A DNA stretch of 64,000 bases, from positions 620,001-684,000 of the forward strand of contig NZ_JACAWU010000001.1 of assembly GCF_013391635.1 (NCBI RefSeq), in the 5' to 3' direction. The DNA comes from Natronomonas gomsonensis (lineage in GTDB: Archaea; Halobacteriota; Halobacteria; Halobacteriales; Haloarculaceae). Positions 2,839-53,352 of this stretch are shown here, piece after piece. Within the stretch, counting starts at the first letter, position 1. The number at the start of each line of letters is the position of its first letter. The notes under the pieces were generated by a model, which was not told the DNA's origin, did not search any database, and saw nothing but the letters and a program-made list of their open reading frames with translations. The position numbers and the translations under genes were made by a program.

Positions 2839-3372
2839 TCAGTCCTCAAAATATTTTGCAGGTTCATTGATTTCGTCTTTGAGGACGAGCCTCGCCGCCG
2901 AGACAGCCTGCAACATCTCGTTCTCATTGAAGTTGTGATATGCCTCGGGGACTTCATCACCAATACCTCCTGTGTCGGAATATTCTACATGCCAAGTAAA
3001 GTACCCATTTGCCCACCGAAACTCCTCATATGCATCCTCAATAAGATTCATCTGAGTGTCGTCTAAGAATATCGAAGCATGACGCATTGCGTACTCAAAA
3101 TCGTAAAAAGCACTCATTATTTCATTTTCAAACTCAGATTCGTCCATTGACATAGAACTCTCCCAATTGAACTTATATTTCTGATAGCAATTCTCCAGAT
3201 TCGCATGTAGGTCCGTAATTGAGTTCACTTTTTCTTTGAGAAAATAGTCTGCATACCGCCGGGTATCTTCAGCCTCAATTTGCTTTTGAGTTACGTAATA
3301 GTTAGCCCCTCCTGCAATTGCGGACCCGATGACACCACCAATTGCGGCCCCAATGACCGTAGCAGTAACCAT
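2839..3372 (-). CDS. AT-rich N-anchored membrane protein
   Basis: 177 residues from the ATG at 3372; an in-frame TTG at 3384 is a weaker start. One Gly/Ala-rich hydrophobic segment lies at about residues 3-25, followed by a helical, coiled-coil-like domain with many Glu, Asn, Tyr and Phe (about 30-165). It is therefore probably an N-terminally anchored protein with a cytoplasmic helical domain. Base composition is clearly lower in GC than all neighbouring genes, and its codons (many ATT, AAT, TTT, GAA) are unlike haloarchaeal housekeeping genes, which points to recent acquisition. No family recognised. Confidence 0.65.
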   Translation of the reverse strand: MVTATVIGAAIGGVIGSAIAGGANYYVTQKQIEAEDTRRYADYFLKEKVNSITDLHANLENCYQKYKFNWESSMSMDESEFENEIMSAFYDFEYAMRHASIFLDDTQMNLIEDAYEEFRWANGYFTWHVEYSDTGGIGDEVPEAYHNFNENEMLQAVSAARLVLKDEINEPAKYFED

Positions 3373-15500: not shown

Positions 15501-16928
15501 ATGGAATCAAACACGCCGGTTTCGAACGTCGTTCTCGTGACGGTGGATTCGCTGCGGGCCGACGCTATCGGCCCGTACGACGACGAACGACACACGCCGG
15601 TTTTGGATTCGATGGCCGACCGCGGAACGGTGTTCGAGAACGCCTTCGCGACCGGCAACTGGACGCCGTTTTCGTTCCCGTCGATACTGTCGTCCAGACC
15701 CGTCTTCGCGGATACGGGCGATATCGGCGTCGAACCAGCGAACTCGCTCGCGACAGTGCTCTCGGAGGCCGGCGTCTCTACCGCCGGCTTCAACGCCGCG
15801 AACGGCTTCCTCACCTCTCACTGGAACTACGATTCCGGATTCGACGAGTTCGACGCCTTCGTCGCCGACATCGGTAGCAGCATCTACAGCCAGTATCTGG
15901 CGAGCCACCCGACCGTAGAGGCGTGGCTCCAGCTGGCGACTTCGCCGTTCCGCCGAGCCGCCTCTTGGCTCCGCGGCGGCAGCGACGACAAGCCCTTCCT
16001 CAACACCTCTCGAATGGCCGACGTCGAGGGCGCCGCCGAGTCGTTCATCGAGGAGACGGAGTCGCCGTTCTTCCTGTGGGTCCACTACATGGACACCCAC
16101 ACGCCCTACGTCCCCGCACCGCGGTACATCCGGGAGGTCTCCGGCGACACCGTCGGCACCCACCGGATGTTGCTCGCCCACGCACAGACGGGACTCGGAC
16201 GCGAGGTCAGCGACCGAACCCTCGAGAGCCTCCGGATGCTGTATCAGGGTGCGACCCGACAGGTCGACGCCAGTATCGGCCGACTACTGGAGACACTCGA
16301 CACCGCCGGCGTCGCCGACGAGACGGCGTTCGTCGTCGCCGGCGACCACGGCGAGGAGTTCCAGGAACACGGCCACCTCGCACACTACCCGAAACTGTAC
16401 GACGAACTGATTCGGGTTCCGCTGCTCGTCGACGTGCCGGGAACGGAACCACGGCGCGTCGAACGGCAGGTCTCTCTCGATTCGATTCCGCCGACGATTG
16501 CTGACCTCCTCGACGCCGAGGCCCCCTCGGCGTGGGCCGGCGAGACGCTCGTTCCGGCCGTCACCTCGGGCGTCGACCCCGCCGACGACCCGGTCGTCTC
16601 CGTGACCGTCCGCGGTGAGGACGTGACCGACCAGCCGATTCCCCGCGCCCTCGGCGACGGCGAACTCCTCGTGAGCGTCCGCGACGAGGAGTGGACCTAC
16701 ATCGAGAACGTCGAGTCGGGCGGGACCGAACTGTATCACAGACCCTCGGACCCGACACAACAGGACGACCTCTCGGCGGAACCGACCGAGGAACAGCGGT
16801 CCGTCATCGAGCTGTTCGAGCCGATTGCGTCCGCCCACGCCGCGACGCTTCGGGGCACAGAGGCCGAACGACCGGAGGAGGTCGACGAGGACCTCCAGAC
16901 ACGGTTGGAGGCGCTCGGTTACCGCTAG
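15501..16928 (+). CDS. Sulfatase/alkaline-phosphatase superfamily hydrolase
   Basis: 475 residues from ATG 15501. The N-terminus NVVLVTVDSLRADAIGPY contains the first metal-binding Asp, and later blocks WVHYMDTHTPYVP and VAGDHGEEFQEHGHLAHY supply the remaining metal ligands of the sulfatase fold. The nucleophile position lies in GNWTPFSFPSILSSRP, where the Cys of the Cys-x-Pro-x-Arg signature is absent and Thr or Ser takes its place, so formylglycine formation is not possible. That pattern fits phosphoglycerol-transferase or phosphodiesterase-like members acting on lipids or glycans. It directly precedes a GtrA-like gene with no gap, which suggests a role in cell-surface glycan or lipid modification. 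Confidence 0.8.
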   Translation: MESNTPVSNVVLVTVDSLRADAIGPYDDERHTPVLDSMADRGTVFENAFATGNWTPFSFPSILSSRPVFADTGDIGVEPANSLATVLSEAGVSTAGFNAANGFLTSHWNYDSGFDEFDAFVADIGSSIYSQYLASHPTVEAWLQLATSPFRRAASWLRGGSDDKPFLNTSRMADVEGAAESFIEETESPFFLWVHYMDTHTPYVPAPRYIREVSGDTVGTHRMLLAHAQTGLGREVSDRTLESLRMLYQGATRQVDASIGRLLETLDTAGVADETAFVVAGDHGEEFQEHGHLAHYPKLYDELIRVPLLVDVPGTEPRRVERQVSLDSIPPTIADLLDAEAPSAWAGETLVPAVTSGVDPADDPVVSVTVRGEDVTDQPIPRALGDGELLVSVRDEEWTYIENVESGGTELYHRPSDPTQQDDLSAEPTEEQRSVIELFEPIASAHAATLRGTEAERPEEVDEDLQTRLEALGYR

Positions 16929-47438: not shown

Positions 47439-49193
47439 TTAGTTGTCGAACCGCGCCTGCACGAACGGTTGGGCTTCCTCGACTTCACCGACCCGGGAAT
47501 CCGAGAGGAGGACGGCCTCGGTTTCGTCGAGCGGAACCGAGAGGCTGATTTCCTTCGTTCGGCCGTAGCGACCCTTCGAGACGACGACGGCGTTGACGAT
47601 GCCGAGCATGTCGAGTTCGCTGATGAGGTCGGTGACGCGGCGTTGGGTGAGCACGTCGGCGTCGATCTCCTGACAGAGTCGCTTGTAGATGTTGAACACC
47701 TCGCCGGTGTTGATGTTGTGGACGCCGTTTTCCTCCAAGAGGATGGTGGCATAGAGGACGAGTTTCGACTGGGTCGGGAGCGTCCGAACGACTTCGACGA
47801 CGCGGTCGAGTTCGATTTTCTCCTGGGCGTGACGGACGTGTTTCTCCTCGACGGTCTCAGTGCGGTCGCGTTCGGCGAGCTCACCCGCGGTTCGAAGCAG
47901 GTCCAGCGCCCGACGGGCGTCGCCGTGTTCCTGTGCGGCGAAAGCGGCACACAGTGGAATCACGTCATCAGAAAGCGTGTCGGGTTTGAACGAGATTTCC
48001 GAACGGTGTTGGAGGATGTCCCGGAGTTGTGTCGCGTCGTACGGCGGGAAGACGATTTCCTCCTCGCCGAGACTGGATTTGACGCGAGGGTCGAGAAAGT
48101 CGGTGAACTTCAGGTCGTTGGAGATGCCCATAATCGACACCCGGGAGTTCTCTAACTCGGAGTTCATCCGCGAGAGGTTGTAGAGCGTGTCGTCGCCCGA
48201 CTTCTCGACGAGTTTGTCGATTTCGTCGAGCATGATGACGACCACGCGCTCGTGGTAGTCGACCGCGTCGAAGAACGTCGAGTACACCCGGTCGGTCGGC
48301 CATCCCGTCATCGGGACGGGTTCGAACTCCTCGAGGTCGTCTTCGAGGTCCCGAATCTTGGTTTCGACCGCCGCGACGCTGTCGAACTCGGTGTCCTCGA
48401 GAACCGAGGGGTCCGCCGCGGCGTCGTCTCGAAGGTCGTCGAGTTCGTCGAGTCGGCGCTCGATGTAGGCCTCGTTTTTCTCGATGAACTTGTTCGCGAG
48501 CTGTGCGAGCACGCGGTACTGGGTGTCGGTCACCTCGCAGTTGATGTACTCGACCTCACAGGGGACCTCGTACTTCTCGGAGGTCGTCTCCAACTCCTCG
48601 GAGACGAACTTCGCGCTGGCGGTCTTTCCGGTCCCCGTCTTGCCGTAGATGAGAATGTTCGACGGCGTCTCCCCGCGCAGGGCCGTGACGAGGATGGTCG
48701 CCATGTTGTTGATCTGCTCCTCGCGGTGGGGGAGTTTCCGCGGGGTGTAGGAGGGACGGAGTACCTCCTTGTTCTCGAAGATGGGTTCGCCTTCGAGCAA
48801 GTCGTCGAACAAGCCACGAGAGGCCTCGTCGGCCTCCTCGTCGGCGGCGGCGTCGAGGTCGAGGTCCTCCAAATCGACATCCCCGGAGAACCCGTCGACG
48901 CTGCGTCCCTGTGTGTCGACGTCCGTGGCGTCGACGCTGGCGTCGACGGCCGACCCCTCCGCTTCCGGTGGAGAATCACCGTCATTTGGGGCTATTTCTT
49001 CGGATTCCGGTGCCGGTACCTCCCCCTCACCAGTCGCCGGGTCGGTCCTCTCGGACCCATCCGTCGCTGTCGAGGCCGAGTCGTCGGTGGAGCCACGGCT
49101 CTCCTCGGTGGTCGAGGTACCTACGTCCGAGTCGTCGGATACCGCCGAACTATCACCTCCGTCAGTTGATGTGTTCGAATCGTCGTCTGTCAT
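47439..49193 (-). CDS. orc1: Orc1/Cdc6 replication initiator
   Basis: 584 residues from ATG 49193. The first ~125 residues are an acidic Ser/Thr/Asp low-complexity leader. The AAA+ domain follows: ILIYGKTGTGKTASAKFV (Walker A), VVVIMLDEIDKLV (Walker B), MGISNDLKF (sensor I) and GDARRALDLLRTAGE (sensor II). The C-terminal winged-helix domain (about 495-580) binds ORBs. The gene flanks oriC1 and has an ORB directly in front of its start, so it should recognise the origin and control its own expression. The length of the acidic leader is unusual compared with Sulfolobus Orc1. Confidence 0.97.
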   Translation of the reverse strand: MTDDDSNTSTDGGDSSAVSDDSDVGTSTTEESRGSTDDSASTATDGSERTDPATGEGEVPAPESEEIAPNDGDSPPEAEGSAVDASVDATDVDTQGRSVDGFSGDVDLEDLDLDAAADEEADEASRGLFDDLLEGEPIFENKEVLRPSYTPRKLPHREEQINNMATILVTALRGETPSNILIYGKTGTGKTASAKFVSEELETTSEKYEVPCEVEYINCEVTDTQYRVLAQLANKFIEKNEAYIERRLDELDDLRDDAAADPSVLEDTEFDSVAAVETKIRDLEDDLEEFEPVPMTGWPTDRVYSTFFDAVDYHERVVVIMLDEIDKLVEKSGDDTLYNLSRMNSELENSRVSIMGISNDLKFTDFLDPRVKSSLGEEEIVFPPYDATQLRDILQHRSEISFKPDTLSDDVIPLCAAFAAQEHGDARRALDLLRTAGELAERDRTETVEEKHVRHAQEKIELDRVVEVVRTLPTQSKLVLYATILLEENGVHNINTGEVFNIYKRLCQEIDADVLTQRRVTDLISELDMLGIVNAVVVSKGRYGRTKEISLSVPLDETEAVLLSDSRVGEVEEAQPFVQARFDN

Positions 49194-49299: not shown

Positions 49300-49325
49300 T
49301 CCAATTGATGCAGGGGAACCGATGG
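49300..49325 (+). repeat. Expanded ORB-like repeat, copy 1
   Basis: TCCA-ATTGATGCAGGG-GAACC-G-ATGG. It keeps both ORB half motifs but separates them by 12 instead of 3 bases. A second copy with the same TTGATGCA core and spacing lies 290 bp to the right. Confidence 0.5.
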
Positions 49326-49428: not shown

Positions 49429-49589
49429 ACACGGGCTCAGTAGCTGGGTTTAGGACGGTCCTACGAGCGGATACCGAGGAGGTAAGACGAGTGTAACGGT
49501 CGAATTCGGGACTCGTGGTCGCTGGTCGGGACCCATTTGAGAAGGTCTCGGAGCCGGTGAGGTGGTGGTGAGGTGACGGTGAATAAGGG

Positions 49590-49618
49590 TTCCAGTTGAT
49601 GCACGGGAAACGGAGGGG
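49590..49618 (+). repeat. Expanded ORB-like repeat, copy 2
   Basis: TTCCA-GTTGATGCACGG-GAAAC-G-GAGGGG: complete ORB halves separated by 12 bases. Its G-run ends three bases before ORB 2 begins on the other strand, so the two form an inverted back-to-back pair. Confidence 0.55.
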
Positions 49619-49621
49619 ATT

Positions 49622-49651
49622 ACCCCCACACCCCTTTGTTTCGAGTGGAAC
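49622..49651 (-). promoter_or_regulatory. ORB 2, left of the unwinding element
   Basis: On the minus strand GTTCCA-CTC-GAAAC-A-AAGGGG followed by TGTGGGGGT, the full haloarchaeal ORB with its extended G-string. It points away from the AT-rich element. Confidence 0.85.
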
Positions 49652-49686
49652 GCGAGAGGGGATGGGTGGGGTAATCGTGGCTGAGG

Positions 49687-49860
49687 TGTCTCCTAACTAA
49701 GTAAGATTTATATACAGTAGACTTAAACCAAAGCCGCACTAGAGAAGAAAGGAATTAGTCTAGTTGTTTTCCTTGTTGTGTTGCTAGGAATCTGGAGCTA
49801 GCAACCGATATTCTAGCCTAGTTCGTTCACTAAATCTAGATATACTAACAACTCCCCGCC
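49687..49860. other. AT-rich DNA unwinding element with CTAG cluster
   Basis: The most AT-rich stretch of the region, between ORB 2 and ORB 3. It carries CTAG at 49739, 49760, 49784, 49798, 49813, 49818 and 49836 (first bases). Such AT-rich DNA between inverted ORBs is where Orc1 opens the helix. The CTAG density is extraordinary for this genome (see findings). Confidence 0.85.
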
Positions 49861-49892
49861 CTTCCCAACACACCCACCCGCCCCTTCTCACC

Positions 49893-49921
49893 GTTCCAGT
49901 TGAAACAGGGGGGTGGGGGTG
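49893..49921 (+). promoter_or_regulatory. ORB 3, right of the unwinding element
   Basis: GTTCCA-GTT-GAAAC-A-GGGGGG followed by TGGGGGTG on the plus strand, a full ORB with extended G-string, in mirror orientation to ORB 2. Confidence 0.87.
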
Positions 49922-49957
49922 TCTCGCCCATCGACTCTGCTTAAATTCGACCGGGAA

Positions 49958-49990
49958 TCCACAGGCGAACCGTCAGTGACCCAGCCCACT
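49958..49990 (+). repeat. Short degenerate tandem repeats right of ORB 3
   Basis: Two 13-base units, CCCACTAACCAAA and CCCACTGACCAAA (about 49984-50009 when the preceding CAG is counted from the line start), followed by partial units CCAACCGACCA. Position is approximate. Purine-poor direct repeats next to an origin may be protein sites or slippage products. Confidence 0.35.
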
Positions 49991-50102
49991 AACCAAACCC
50001 ACTGACCAAACCAACCGACCAGCAGTCGCTGGTTGAGCAGTCACTGACCGAGAGGTCCTCGAGCGAGTGCTGTCGGAGTTTCCTCGTCGACCGTCTCGAA
50101 GT

Positions 50103-50336: not shown

Positions 50337-50978
50337 ATGGGACTGTTAACCGAACTCAAATCGAGTATTTCCCGGGCGACGTCGAGCCTGTTTGCGGGCA
50401 GCGAGCCGAAGCGAATCGGCATTTACGGCCCTCCGAACGCGGGCAAGACGACGCTCGCCAATCGTATCGCTCGCGACTGGACCGGCGACGCCATCGGTCC
50501 CGAGAGCCACGTTCCCCACGAGACGCGACGCGCACGTCGCAAGGAGAACGTGGAGATCAAGCGAAACGGCAAGTCCGTCACCATCGACGTGGTGGACACC
50601 CCTGGCGTCACGACGAAAGTCGACTACAAGGAGTTCCTCGAACACGACATCGAGAAAGACGACGCCGTCCGTCGCTCCCGCGAGGCGACCGAAGGGGTCG
50701 CCGAGGCCATGCACTGGCTTCGGGAGGACGTCGACGGCGTCATTTACGTCCTCGATGCGACCGAGGACCCGTTCACGCAGGTGAACACGATGCTTATCGG
50801 CATCATCGAGAGCCAGGACCTGCCGGTGTTGATTTTCGCGAACAAAATCGACCTCGAAGAGGCAAGCGTTCAGCGAATCAGCAACGCGTTCCCCCAACAC
50901 GAGACGGTTCCGCTGTCGGCGCTGGAGGGAGACAACATGGACGAAGTGTACGACAAAATAGCGGAGTACTTCGGGTGA
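50337..50978 (+). CDS. oapA: Origin-associated GTPase OapA
   Basis: 213-residue small GTPase from ATG 50337. G1 is GIYGPPNAGKTTL (residues 28-40), G3 is DVVDTPGVTT, G4 is FANKIDL and G5 lies in TVPLSALEG. It resembles Era/YihA-like GTPases. In haloarchaea it is the first of three genes (oapABC) conserved next to oriC1; their role in replication is inferred from this linkage. The next gene follows after four bases. An upstream in-frame ATG would start inside the palindrome region and is less likely. Confidence 0.92.
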   Translation: MGLLTELKSSISRATSSLFAGSEPKRIGIYGPPNAGKTTLANRIARDWTGDAIGPESHVPHETRRARRKENVEIKRNGKSVTIDVVDTPGVTTKVDYKEFLEHDIEKDDAVRRSREATEGVAEAMHWLREDVDGVIYVLDATEDPFTQVNTMLIGIIESQDLPVLIFANKIDLEEASVQRISNAFPQHETVPLSALEGDNMDEVYDKIAEYFG

Positions 50979-50982
50979 CACC

Positions 50983-51384
50983 ATGCCCGAGATAACCACC
51001 GACGACGACGGCGAGGGACTGGGCGACGGCATCCAGATCGACATGATAAGCGCCGAGCGGATGCAGGACATGCGGACGATGGAGAAGATTCGCCTCATCC
51101 TCGACGGCGTCCACGACGGTAACATCGTCATCCTCGAGGAAGGGCTGGAACCCGAAGAGGAGTCGAAACTCATCGAGGTGACGATGTCGGAAATCAACCC
51201 CGACGGCTTCACCGGCATCGAAATCGAAACGTATCCGGGCGGCGACAGCGGCGACAGCGGGTTCCTCGGCCGCATCATGGGGAAAGACGAGCCGAACAAA
51301 CTGACCGTCATCGGTCCGGCGAACCGCATCGAGACGCTTCACAAAGACGAGACCCTCATCAGTACCCTCATCACGCGCACGTAA
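50983..51384 (+). CDS. oapB: Origin-associated protein OapB (DUF2073)
   Basis: 133 residues of the archaeal DUF2073 family. The blocks DMISAERMQDMRTMEKIRLILDGVHDGNIVILEEGL and EVTMSEINPDGFTGIEIETYP are typical. No enzymatic motif is visible. It is located between the GTPase and the zinc-ribbon protein, with a four-base gap to oapA and 18 bases to oapC, and is likely to form a complex with one of them. Confidence 0.92.
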   Translation: MPEITTDDDGEGLGDGIQIDMISAERMQDMRTMEKIRLILDGVHDGNIVILEEGLEPEEESKLIEVTMSEINPDGFTGIEIETYPGGDSGDSGFLGRIMGKDEPNKLTVIGPANRIETLHKDETLISTLITRT

Positions 51385-52227: not shown

Positions 52228-53352
52228 TCACTCTTCCAGTCGGTCGAGAATCGCGTCGGAATCGTACGACAGCGACAGCGCCCGCGAACGGCCCCGTCCC
52301 TCGACGTCGGTGTACTCCGCGTCGATGAGGCCGAGCTGGTCGAGTTTGTTGATGATTTCGGAGTAGCGAGTGTAGCCAAGGTCGGTCGTCTCGCTGAAGG
52401 CCTCGTAGACGTCCCCGGCACGTTTGCCGTCGTGTTCCGCGAGCACTCTGACGAGGGCGGCTTCCGACTCGGACAACCCACGGAGATGCCGCGACAGATG
52501 GACGTACTTTGCCTTCTCGTAGGCGTCGTCGACGTCCTCGACGCTCACTTCCGTCGACCCGCGCATCTCGGCGTTCAGGCCGGCCCGTCGGAGCAGGTCG
52601 ATACCGACCCGGAGGTCACCGCCGCTGTCGGCGGTGTGTTCGGCCACCCGGTCTAAGACTTGCGTCCCCACGACGCCCTCTCGGAAGCCACGCTCGACGC
52701 GCTCCCTGAGAATGTCGACGATTTCGCGCTCGCCGTACGCCGAGAAGTACACCTCTTCGGGGCGGAACACCGATTGGACTCGACCATCGAGTTCCTCGAT
52801 GACGTCCAGATCGAGGTCCGATGAGACGACGATGACGCCGATCTTCGCCCCGGAGTGTGCCTCGTGGGCTCGAAGCAGCGAGTACAGCGTATCGGAGGCC
52901 TCGTCCTCGTAGAAGAGGTAGTTCACGTCGTCTAACGCGACGACAAGGACCTCGTCTTCCTCGACGAGGTGGTCGGTAATCTGTCCGAACAGTTTCTTGA
53001 ACGAGATGCCGGAGGTCGGCGGCTCGTAGTCGAACAGTCCCTCGAACAGCCGCGAGAACACGGCGTATCGCGTCGAGTCGACCTGACAGTTCACACGGAC
53101 GACCTCGATGTCGCTGACGCTCGTGAGTTCGTCGAACAGTTTCTGGACGGCCGTCGTCTTGCCGGTCCCGGGGGGTCCCCGAGCCATCACGTTCAGCGGT
53201 CGGGAGCCGCGAACGGCCGGCCGGAGGGCGTACTTCAGCGTCTCCATCTGCTCGTCGCGGTGTAAGAACGCCTCCGGGAGGTAATCCAGTTCGAGGACGT
53301 GCTCGTCGCGGAACACCGACTCGTCCCACGACAGCATGTCGTCGTCCGCCAT
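52228..53352 (-). CDS. Second Orc1/Cdc6-family protein
   Basis: 374-residue AAA+ protein, shorter than orc1 and without the acidic leader. Walker A is ARGPPGTGKTTAV (residues 57-69). Walker B reads VVALDDVNYLF, with Asp-Asp instead of Asp-Glu. Sensor I is VIVVSSDLDLD and the arginine-rich GGDLRVGIDLLRRAGLNAE is sensor II. The C-terminal winged helix is at ~290-370. It belongs to a distinct Orc group that I know to be linked to polymerase D genes in haloarchaea. It faces oapC and lies downstream of the mutS-family gene in the same orientation. Confidence 0.93.
   Translation of the reverse strand: MADDDMLSWDESVFRDEHVLELDYLPEAFLHRDEQMETLKYALRPAVRGSRPLNVMARGPPGTGKTTAVQKLFDELTSVSDIEVVRVNCQVDSTRYAVFSRLFEGLFDYEPPTSGISFKKLFGQITDHLVEEDEVLVVALDDVNYLFYEDEASDTLYSLLRAHEAHSGAKIGVIVVSSDLDLDVIEELDGRVQSVFRPEEVYFSAYGEREIVDILRERVERGFREGVVGTQVLDRVAEHTADSGGDLRVGIDLLRRAGLNAEMRGSTEVSVEDVDDAYEKAKYVHLSRHLRGLSESEAALVRVLAEHDGKRAGDVYEAFSETTDLGYTRYSEIINKLDQLGLIDAEYTDVEGRGRSRALSLSYDSDAILDRLEE

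Follow-up and report, generated by a model that had tools for sequence, protein, structure and literature searches.

What do seven copies of the tetranucleotide CTAG do within about a hundred base pairs of a haloarchaeal replication origin? The question is raised by a window of Natronomonas gomsonensis DNA, that is, the whole stretch of 64,000 nucleotides that we analyzed. Its oriC1 locus contains an AT-rich element (49700..49855, GC 0.37), presumed to be the unwinding element, which lies between inverted ORB-like repeats with G-strings, beside orc1/cdc6 and oapB. The left repeat (49628..49672, plus strand) has its core match at 49639 and the right repeat (49893..49919, minus strand) at 49895, the ends of both having been placed by eye. 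To the left of the element lies the orc1/cdc6 gene of oriC1 (47439..49193, minus strand), whose reading frame opens at 49304 and whose likely start, judged by eye, is near 49193. To the right are a GTPase gene (50337..50978, plus strand, start placed by eye), which we take to be oapA, and the gene for origin-associated protein OapB (oapB, 50983..51384, plus strand, PF09846). The oapA-like gene is matched in 390 of 391 genomes of the class and served as our anchor; its product in the window agrees at all 212 residues compared with that of Natronomonas sp. CBA1123. A second orc1/cdc6-like gene lies nearby (52228-53352, minus strand), with no CTAG cluster in its vicinity.

The seven CTAGs (49739..49839) start exactly where a sequence-only reading of the window had placed them, at 49739, 49760, 49784, 49798, 49813, 49818 and 49836, and all lie between the inverted repeats, as it had claimed. 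Their spacings are 21, 24, 14, 15, 5 and 18 bp. Directly left of the first CTAG is a presumed core (49707..49738, plus strand), with TTTATA at 49707 and AACCAAAGCCGCA at 49726-49738. Similar letters, TTTAT followed after about 15-20 bp by AAC..AA.CCGYA, stand just left of the CTAGs in many oriC1 stretches; an expression for this core found a candidate in 89 of 139 origins, some of these matches looking spurious. Judged by its letters, the putative TTTAT/CCGYA core looks like either an archaeal promoter with its start site or an origin core element.

Is the cluster more than a product of local composition? The window holds 20 CTAGs in total, against 83.2 (sd 8.5) in dinucleotide shuffles, which bears out the avoidance of the motif that had been asserted. 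Thirteen CTAGs thus lie outside the cluster, not about eleven as first counted by eye: those at 16925 and 56626 had been overlooked, and several other positions were off by 1 to 9. Single-base shuffles of the element give an expectation of 0.55 CTAGs, in line with the earlier estimate of less than one, and none of 10,000 reaches the observed seven. Dinucleotide shuffles give 1.77 and reach seven once in 10,000; the figure is 6 in 10,000 with bounds of 49690-49850 and 5 in 10,000 with bounds of 49500-50000 (31 in 10,000 by single bases). No CTAG occurs in the equally AT-rich 150-bp windows starting at 3021-3121 of the same stretch. Together, the shuffles and this control show that composition does not explain the cluster. 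We further defined a CTAG triple as three CTAGs, each separated from the next by no more than 30 bp. In the window's own genome (G000; 3,377,131 bp, 2 contigs), the cluster is the sole triple locus, all five forward matches falling within 49739-49839. Such uniqueness is not general, since 45 of 50 other genomes tried have CTAG triples, many of them elsewhere among the matches listed. The original observation is correct, and stronger than it was first stated.

It had also been thought undescribed, which is wrong. Blow et al. in 2016 already reported CTAG clusters at orc1/cdc6 starts in Haloarchaea (PMC4752239, Fig 6D legend). They found a correlation between the clusters and an orphan m4C methylase, and suggested that the clusters act in replication; in the body of that paper the motif is printed CATG, in the Fig 6 legend CTAG. 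The window's cluster, located in non-coding DNA upstream of orc1/cdc6, is of this kind. In Haloferax volcanii, Ouellette et al. in 2018 described a high density at oriC2 only, and reported that CTAG methylation was lost once HVO_0794 (zim) and two further genes had been deleted (PMC5867850). Fullmer et al. in 2019 described the methylase as conserved and CTAG as avoided genome-wide (PMC6471742), and a 2023 survey noted the clusters and called their function unknown (PMC10609329).

The window's genome carries a Zim homologue (G000:C1:1213799-1214827, PF01555), assigned through homology only. It shares 61% identity with the copy of Haloferax sulfurifontis and 42.5% with the methylase encoded on plasmid pFZ1, whose gene adjoins an MjaI-family endonuclease gene; MjaI cuts CTAG. 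The pFZ1 gene is presumably the characterised mthZIM. A plasmid-encoded mthZIM is named in the title of a reference of PMC6471742. By homology, G000 is thus predicted to encode a CTAG m4C methylase of the HVO_0794/Zim family. A second methylase gene lies on C2 near 1.53 Mb (L002 1192-2307) and is 48% identical to the Zim copy.

Using the G000 copy as query, with E up to 1e-30, we found Zim in 332 of the 391 class genomes; 20 of the 59 negatives were listed as such, the others being deduced from their absence among the matches. We then counted CTAGs in 160 stretches from other genomes, each covering at most 3.3 kb of the DNA ahead of the oapA-like gene, together with G000. Requiring orc1 upstream within the stretch left 139 of 161. 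The 22 dropped are short contig ends or have orc1 elsewhere; they include genomes G005, G020 and G045 of family f3, which bear the array described below, and G043, whose element has no CTAG. G439, for which no Zim search was made, was omitted from the Zim counts. With a threshold of at least three CTAGs in about 150 bp, clusters are present in 84 of 117 Zim-positive origins, in one of eight with only a distant homologue and in none of 13 Zim-negative ones, a count that overstates independence because 12 of these 13 belong to one family. The claimed link between origin clusters and the orphan methylase is thereby upheld. In a named set overlapping the first (80 named loci, 69 of them with orc1; 50 were taken and 48 counted), clusters occur in 29 of 42 with Zim and in none of six without.

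The association varies across families. Among Zim-positive origins, clusters are found in 34 of 37 in f1 (which includes Natronomonas, Haloarcula and Halosegnis), 3 of 3 in f2, 22 of 22 in f3 (which includes Halorubellus salinus), 2 of 2 in f7, 5 of 6 in f8, 1 of 2 in f9, 17 of 39 in f4 (Haloferax, Halorubrum) and 0 of 6 in f6 (Halorussus). We take f3 to be mostly Natrialbaceae. When the three CTAGs must lie between a recognised ORB pair, the Zim-positive counts are 30 of 33 in f1, 21 of 21 in f3, 15 of 39 in f4, 0 of 6 in f6 and 8 of 13 in the others, and again 0 of 13 without Zim. In Zim-positive origins many CTAGs lie outside the ORBs, those between them numbering 169 of 221 in f1, 127 of 167 in f3 and 73 of 126 in f4. 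Within f4, intergenic stretches hold on average 3.2 CTAGs with Zim (39 stretches) and 0.9 without (12; p 0.047 on genus means). A comparison of oriC1 across genera, as the sequence-only reading had proposed, therefore yields a mixed result: clusters are widespread in the presence of Zim, but several Zim-positive lineages lack them. These comprise 22 of 39 origins in f4, all six in Halorussus, one of six in f8, one of two in f9, three of 37 in f1 (G310, G390 and G300, which share the window's genus) and the f3 genus g36 (two genomes looked at). Clusters in f4 and Halorussus are weak even with Zim; Haloferax oriC1 has only 2 to 6 CTAGs (seven genomes of g34 counted).

Several loci depart from the usual layout. 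In g36, the 1.5 kb upstream of oapA contain 0 and 1 CTAG (L285, from G043, and L423, from G208); in G043, orc1 is about 4.6 kb from oapA, and an ORB-flanked element has no CTAG despite Zim. In part of the Halorubrum genus, orc1 seems to have moved away from oapA, with no orc1 match upstream of oapA in L088, L094, L098, L104 and L110 (5 kb upstream), L204, L205, L208 and L210 (3.3 kb) or L296 (8.2 kb). In G361, 17 CTAGs occupy about 290 bp (L290 2263-2549) beside a different orc1/cdc6 paralogue (35% identity), so that other origins can carry even denser clusters.

The same sample bears on whether the clusters are anything but AT content, chance or a refuge from a genome-wide purge of CTAG. In Zim-positive stretches the motif is depleted in the coding flanks, to 0.16-0.18 per kb, and a spared non-coding patch would stand out for this reason. 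We nevertheless consider such an origin very improbable. Besides the evidence of the shuffles and the CTAG-free control, 73 origins counted as Zim-positive (f4 and f6 excluded, G439 included) contain 316 CTAGs in their AT-rich 200 bp where dinucleotide content predicts 90, which makes CTAG the most over-represented of the 16 palindromic tetramers; the recurrent spacing with near-whole-turn length changes, described below, also argues against it.

Outside f4, only two genomes, G343 and G304, lack Zim (match lists compared by eye); both are drafts, 90% complete, so that its absence is not certain. The origin of G343 has no CTAG, whereas its congeners G229 and G315 have 11 and 10, three in each lying between the ORBs and most others to their left. 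Left of the left ORB, oriC1 holds four of the four CTAG triples of G229 and four of the five of G315; no triple occurs anywhere in the G343 genome. Yet the G343 origin retains both ORBs, TTTATTA and the CCGTA core. The site after the core reads CTAC, and the congeners' CCGTACTAG becomes CCGTACTAC. In G304, the 1.5 kb preceding oapA contain a single CTAG. Its congener G340, which is Zim-positive, shows three at intervals of 11 and 10 bp plus a distant fourth, and ORBs can be recognised by eye in both genomes. As a separate matter, G343 matches a GATC control triple 779 times, compared with 103 and 84 times in two of its congeners, as if it had acquired a GATC methylase.

The Zim association argues that methylation of the cluster sites matters, and one form this may take is a timing device like that of Dam and SeqA: newly replicated, hemimethylated CTAGs would be bound by a sequestering protein until Zim completes their methylation. 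The two Zim-less origins without a cluster are in keeping with this, and a replication role was proposed by Blow et al. (PMC4752239). Efficient SeqA binding in vitro needs sites two to three helical turns apart (PMC5145175), which the f3 spacing of some one to three turns recalls. However, no SeqA-like protein is known to us in these organisms, and the H. volcanii deletion strain, which lacks the methylase and other RM genes, has no growth defect (PMC5867850). In H. lucertense, 58-69% of CTAGs are methylated, and since those without methylation are concentrated in plasmids and in regions of low GC (PMC11001535), origin CTAGs may be mostly unmethylated. We regard sequestration of this type as a tentative possibility.

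In f3 the CTAGs recur at near-fixed spacings, frequently of 20, 22 and 10 bp; the next CTAG comes 31 bp later, and in many cases an additional one lies 49 bp ahead of the series. A pattern with spacings of 19-22, 20-23 and 10 bp matches 74 of 100 f3 genomes and one of 291 others (families counted by hand); the exception is the CTAG-rich stretch of G361 beside its other orc1-like gene. In 15 arrays picked by exact 20-22-10 spacing, a choice that makes the CTAG columns invariant, the +31 site averages 0.95 and the -49 site 0.68; mean pairwise identity in the spacers is 0.54. A CTAG stands at exactly +31, a position outside the pattern, in 38 of 41 cases.

We compared 49 f3 stretches, 26 selected for holding the array and 23 others; the array follows a CCG core in all 26 and in 15 of the 23. 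Letters like those of the window core keep the same distance to the array in 40 of 40 f3 loci with both ORBs (a CCG within 14 bp being required), and the left ORB is 92-97 bp away. The distance from array to right ORB takes values of 144-147, 155-158, 165-167, 177 or 198 bp, that is, near-whole-turn steps. Its phase gives R 0.885 at a period of 10.38 bp (n=40), against R 0.633 at the best period for the ORB-to-ORB distance in the same arrays. With one locus per genus (19 genera), R is 0.866, a value reached by 0 of 20,000 uniform draws; the five distance-class means alone are matched by 3 of 20,000. Within four genera, the distance changes by steps of 0.87, 0.96, 1.06, 1.83 and 4.13 turns. An extra CTAG at +51 or +52 is present in 10 of 10 loci of the 165-177 bp class and in 0 of 31 others. 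A full ORB-array-ORB origin is also seen at positions 2730-3048 of L283 (G045), a 6-kb stretch in which orc1 and oapA are unmatched.

Because the phase to the ORB is fixed, the f3 geometry suggests that proteins assemble along a single face of the helix, where they would read CTAG as a contact beside Orc1. Such spacing is unmentioned in the passages searched, which come from main texts and include few subscription journals. What the present analysis adds is the f3 geometry, with its spacing, core-to-array distance and helical phase to the ORB, along with the pair of Zim-less origins.

A recurrent helical architecture is what any protein array would produce, and CTAG could be the site of an origin-binding or regulatory protein to which methylation is incidental, Zim being kept for another purpose or to protect or mark the sites. 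The TTTATA and CCGYA core, with its possible resemblance to an archaeal promoter and start site or to a core element of the origin, would fit such a protein, and CTAG has been noted in repressor binding (PMC6471742). The joint absence of cluster and Zim would then need another cause, and we find this account rather doubtful.

Helical phasing does not extend to all families as a general property: the pooled signal is carried mainly by f3. With one origin per genus, the non-f3 set gives 103 and 212 of 2000 against the null on two measures, borderline or absent. The null is exceeded when the non-f3 origins are all pooled (0 and 0 of 2000) and when all those of f1 are taken (5 and 20 of 2000), both sets counting related genomes more than once. 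As a general property of the ORB-to-ORB distance, phasing is weaker, with the R of 0.633 at best in the f3 arrays and R 0.215 at 10.4 bp in 112 non-f3 origins (nominal p 0.006). In the window's genus, CTAG positions turn over between species and the corresponding values are 153 and 73 of 2000. G000 has no match to the array pattern, and the window's CTAGs do not show the 20-22-10 spacing with a whole-turn distance to the right ORB. The window's element is at best weakly phased and, by its spacings, turnover and phasing, belongs to a looser form of the cluster.

Phased sites in an AT-rich element could also act through DNA structure, the central TA step of each CTAG forming a flexible or easily melted point without any specific reader; phasing would make bends add up. 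The AT-rich 200 bp of eight Halorubrum-like origins without Zim have an excess of TATA (2.2-fold) and ATAT (1.8-fold), as if these replaced CTAG, but the two are hardly enriched in Zim-positive elements (0.9 and 1.2), and a structural role does not predict loss together with Zim. We think it improbable as an explanation. In the same 200 bp of these eight origins, a replacement of CTAG by GATC is not supported (8 against 5 expected).

Further candidates were set aside. A mobile or viral copy of the array is not indicated, the strict pattern having no match in the virus collection; the loose pattern matched at least 120 stretches, taken as chance matches. A longer consensus around CTAG is not apparent in the pooled table of 409 sites, where the first flanking position is A or T in 0.75 and ACTAGA is commonest (170). 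We know of no CTAG reader protein. No conserved candidate for one was found beside zim in the five neighbourhoods compared, where the sole neighbour in all five, antisense frames aside, is a type I 3-dehydroquinase gene (Pfam assignment from G000 only).

The reading that we prefer, and to which we give about an even chance of being right, is that the CTAGs form a selected, origin-specific cluster of Zim targets, serving as a docking platform that controls oriC1. The seven sites would be targets of the orphan m4C methylase inside the unwinding element. A predicted reader protein, or an oligomer, would bind CTAG, its binding being tuned by Zim methylation, and together with Orc1 on the flanking ORBs would build a nucleoprotein complex controlling the melting or re-firing of oriC1. 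Against it stand the Zim-positive lineages without a cluster, the CTAGs outside the ORBs, the weak phasing in the window's genus and the unimpaired growth of the H. volcanii deletion strain, though Haloferax oriC1 has few CTAGs to begin with. More speculatively, and with considerably less confidence, we may hypothesize a one-face CTAG-ORB platform, in which an m4C-sensitive reader forms oligomers along CTAGs spaced by whole turns and aligned with Orc1 on the ORB, and couples firing to methylation. Such a system would be an archaeal equivalent of SeqA sequestration, built on a geometry of its own, the window's cluster representing a relaxed form. For the question of how archaea prevent re-firing of their origins, CTAG clusters have offered a statistical clue from 2016 on; the phased f3 geometry and the two Zim-less origins without a cluster turn this clue into a defined cis element. 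The geometry yields exact positions to mutate, a helix face and an affinity bait for the reader.

In motif, place and correlation with the methylase, the cluster resembles those published for Haloarchaea (PMC4752239; PMC10609329, HG1; PMC6471742, cHG U). The passages of these reports that deal with clusters give motif density, and fixed spacing, core distance and helical phase are unmentioned there. As at E. coli oriC with GATC, Dam and SeqA, a methylase target is clustered at an origin; the two systems differ in motif, in modification (m4C versus m6A) and in the global avoidance of CTAG here, and whole-turn spacing is not seen among the GATCs of E. coli oriC itself (PMC5145175). The Haloarcula hispanica oriC1 enhancer is likewise a non-ORB element between ORBs that tunes firing, but it is a G-rich inverted repeat beside the ORBs rather than CTAG (PMC3936714), a word with no occurrence in the text of that paper. 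In Sulfolobus, the ucm is a single motif of a crenarchaeal origin, likened here by description and not by sequence; as in the window, a short motif lies in the unwinding element between ORBs, and there it is needed by the origin and bound by a non-initiator protein, UBP (PMC12141716).
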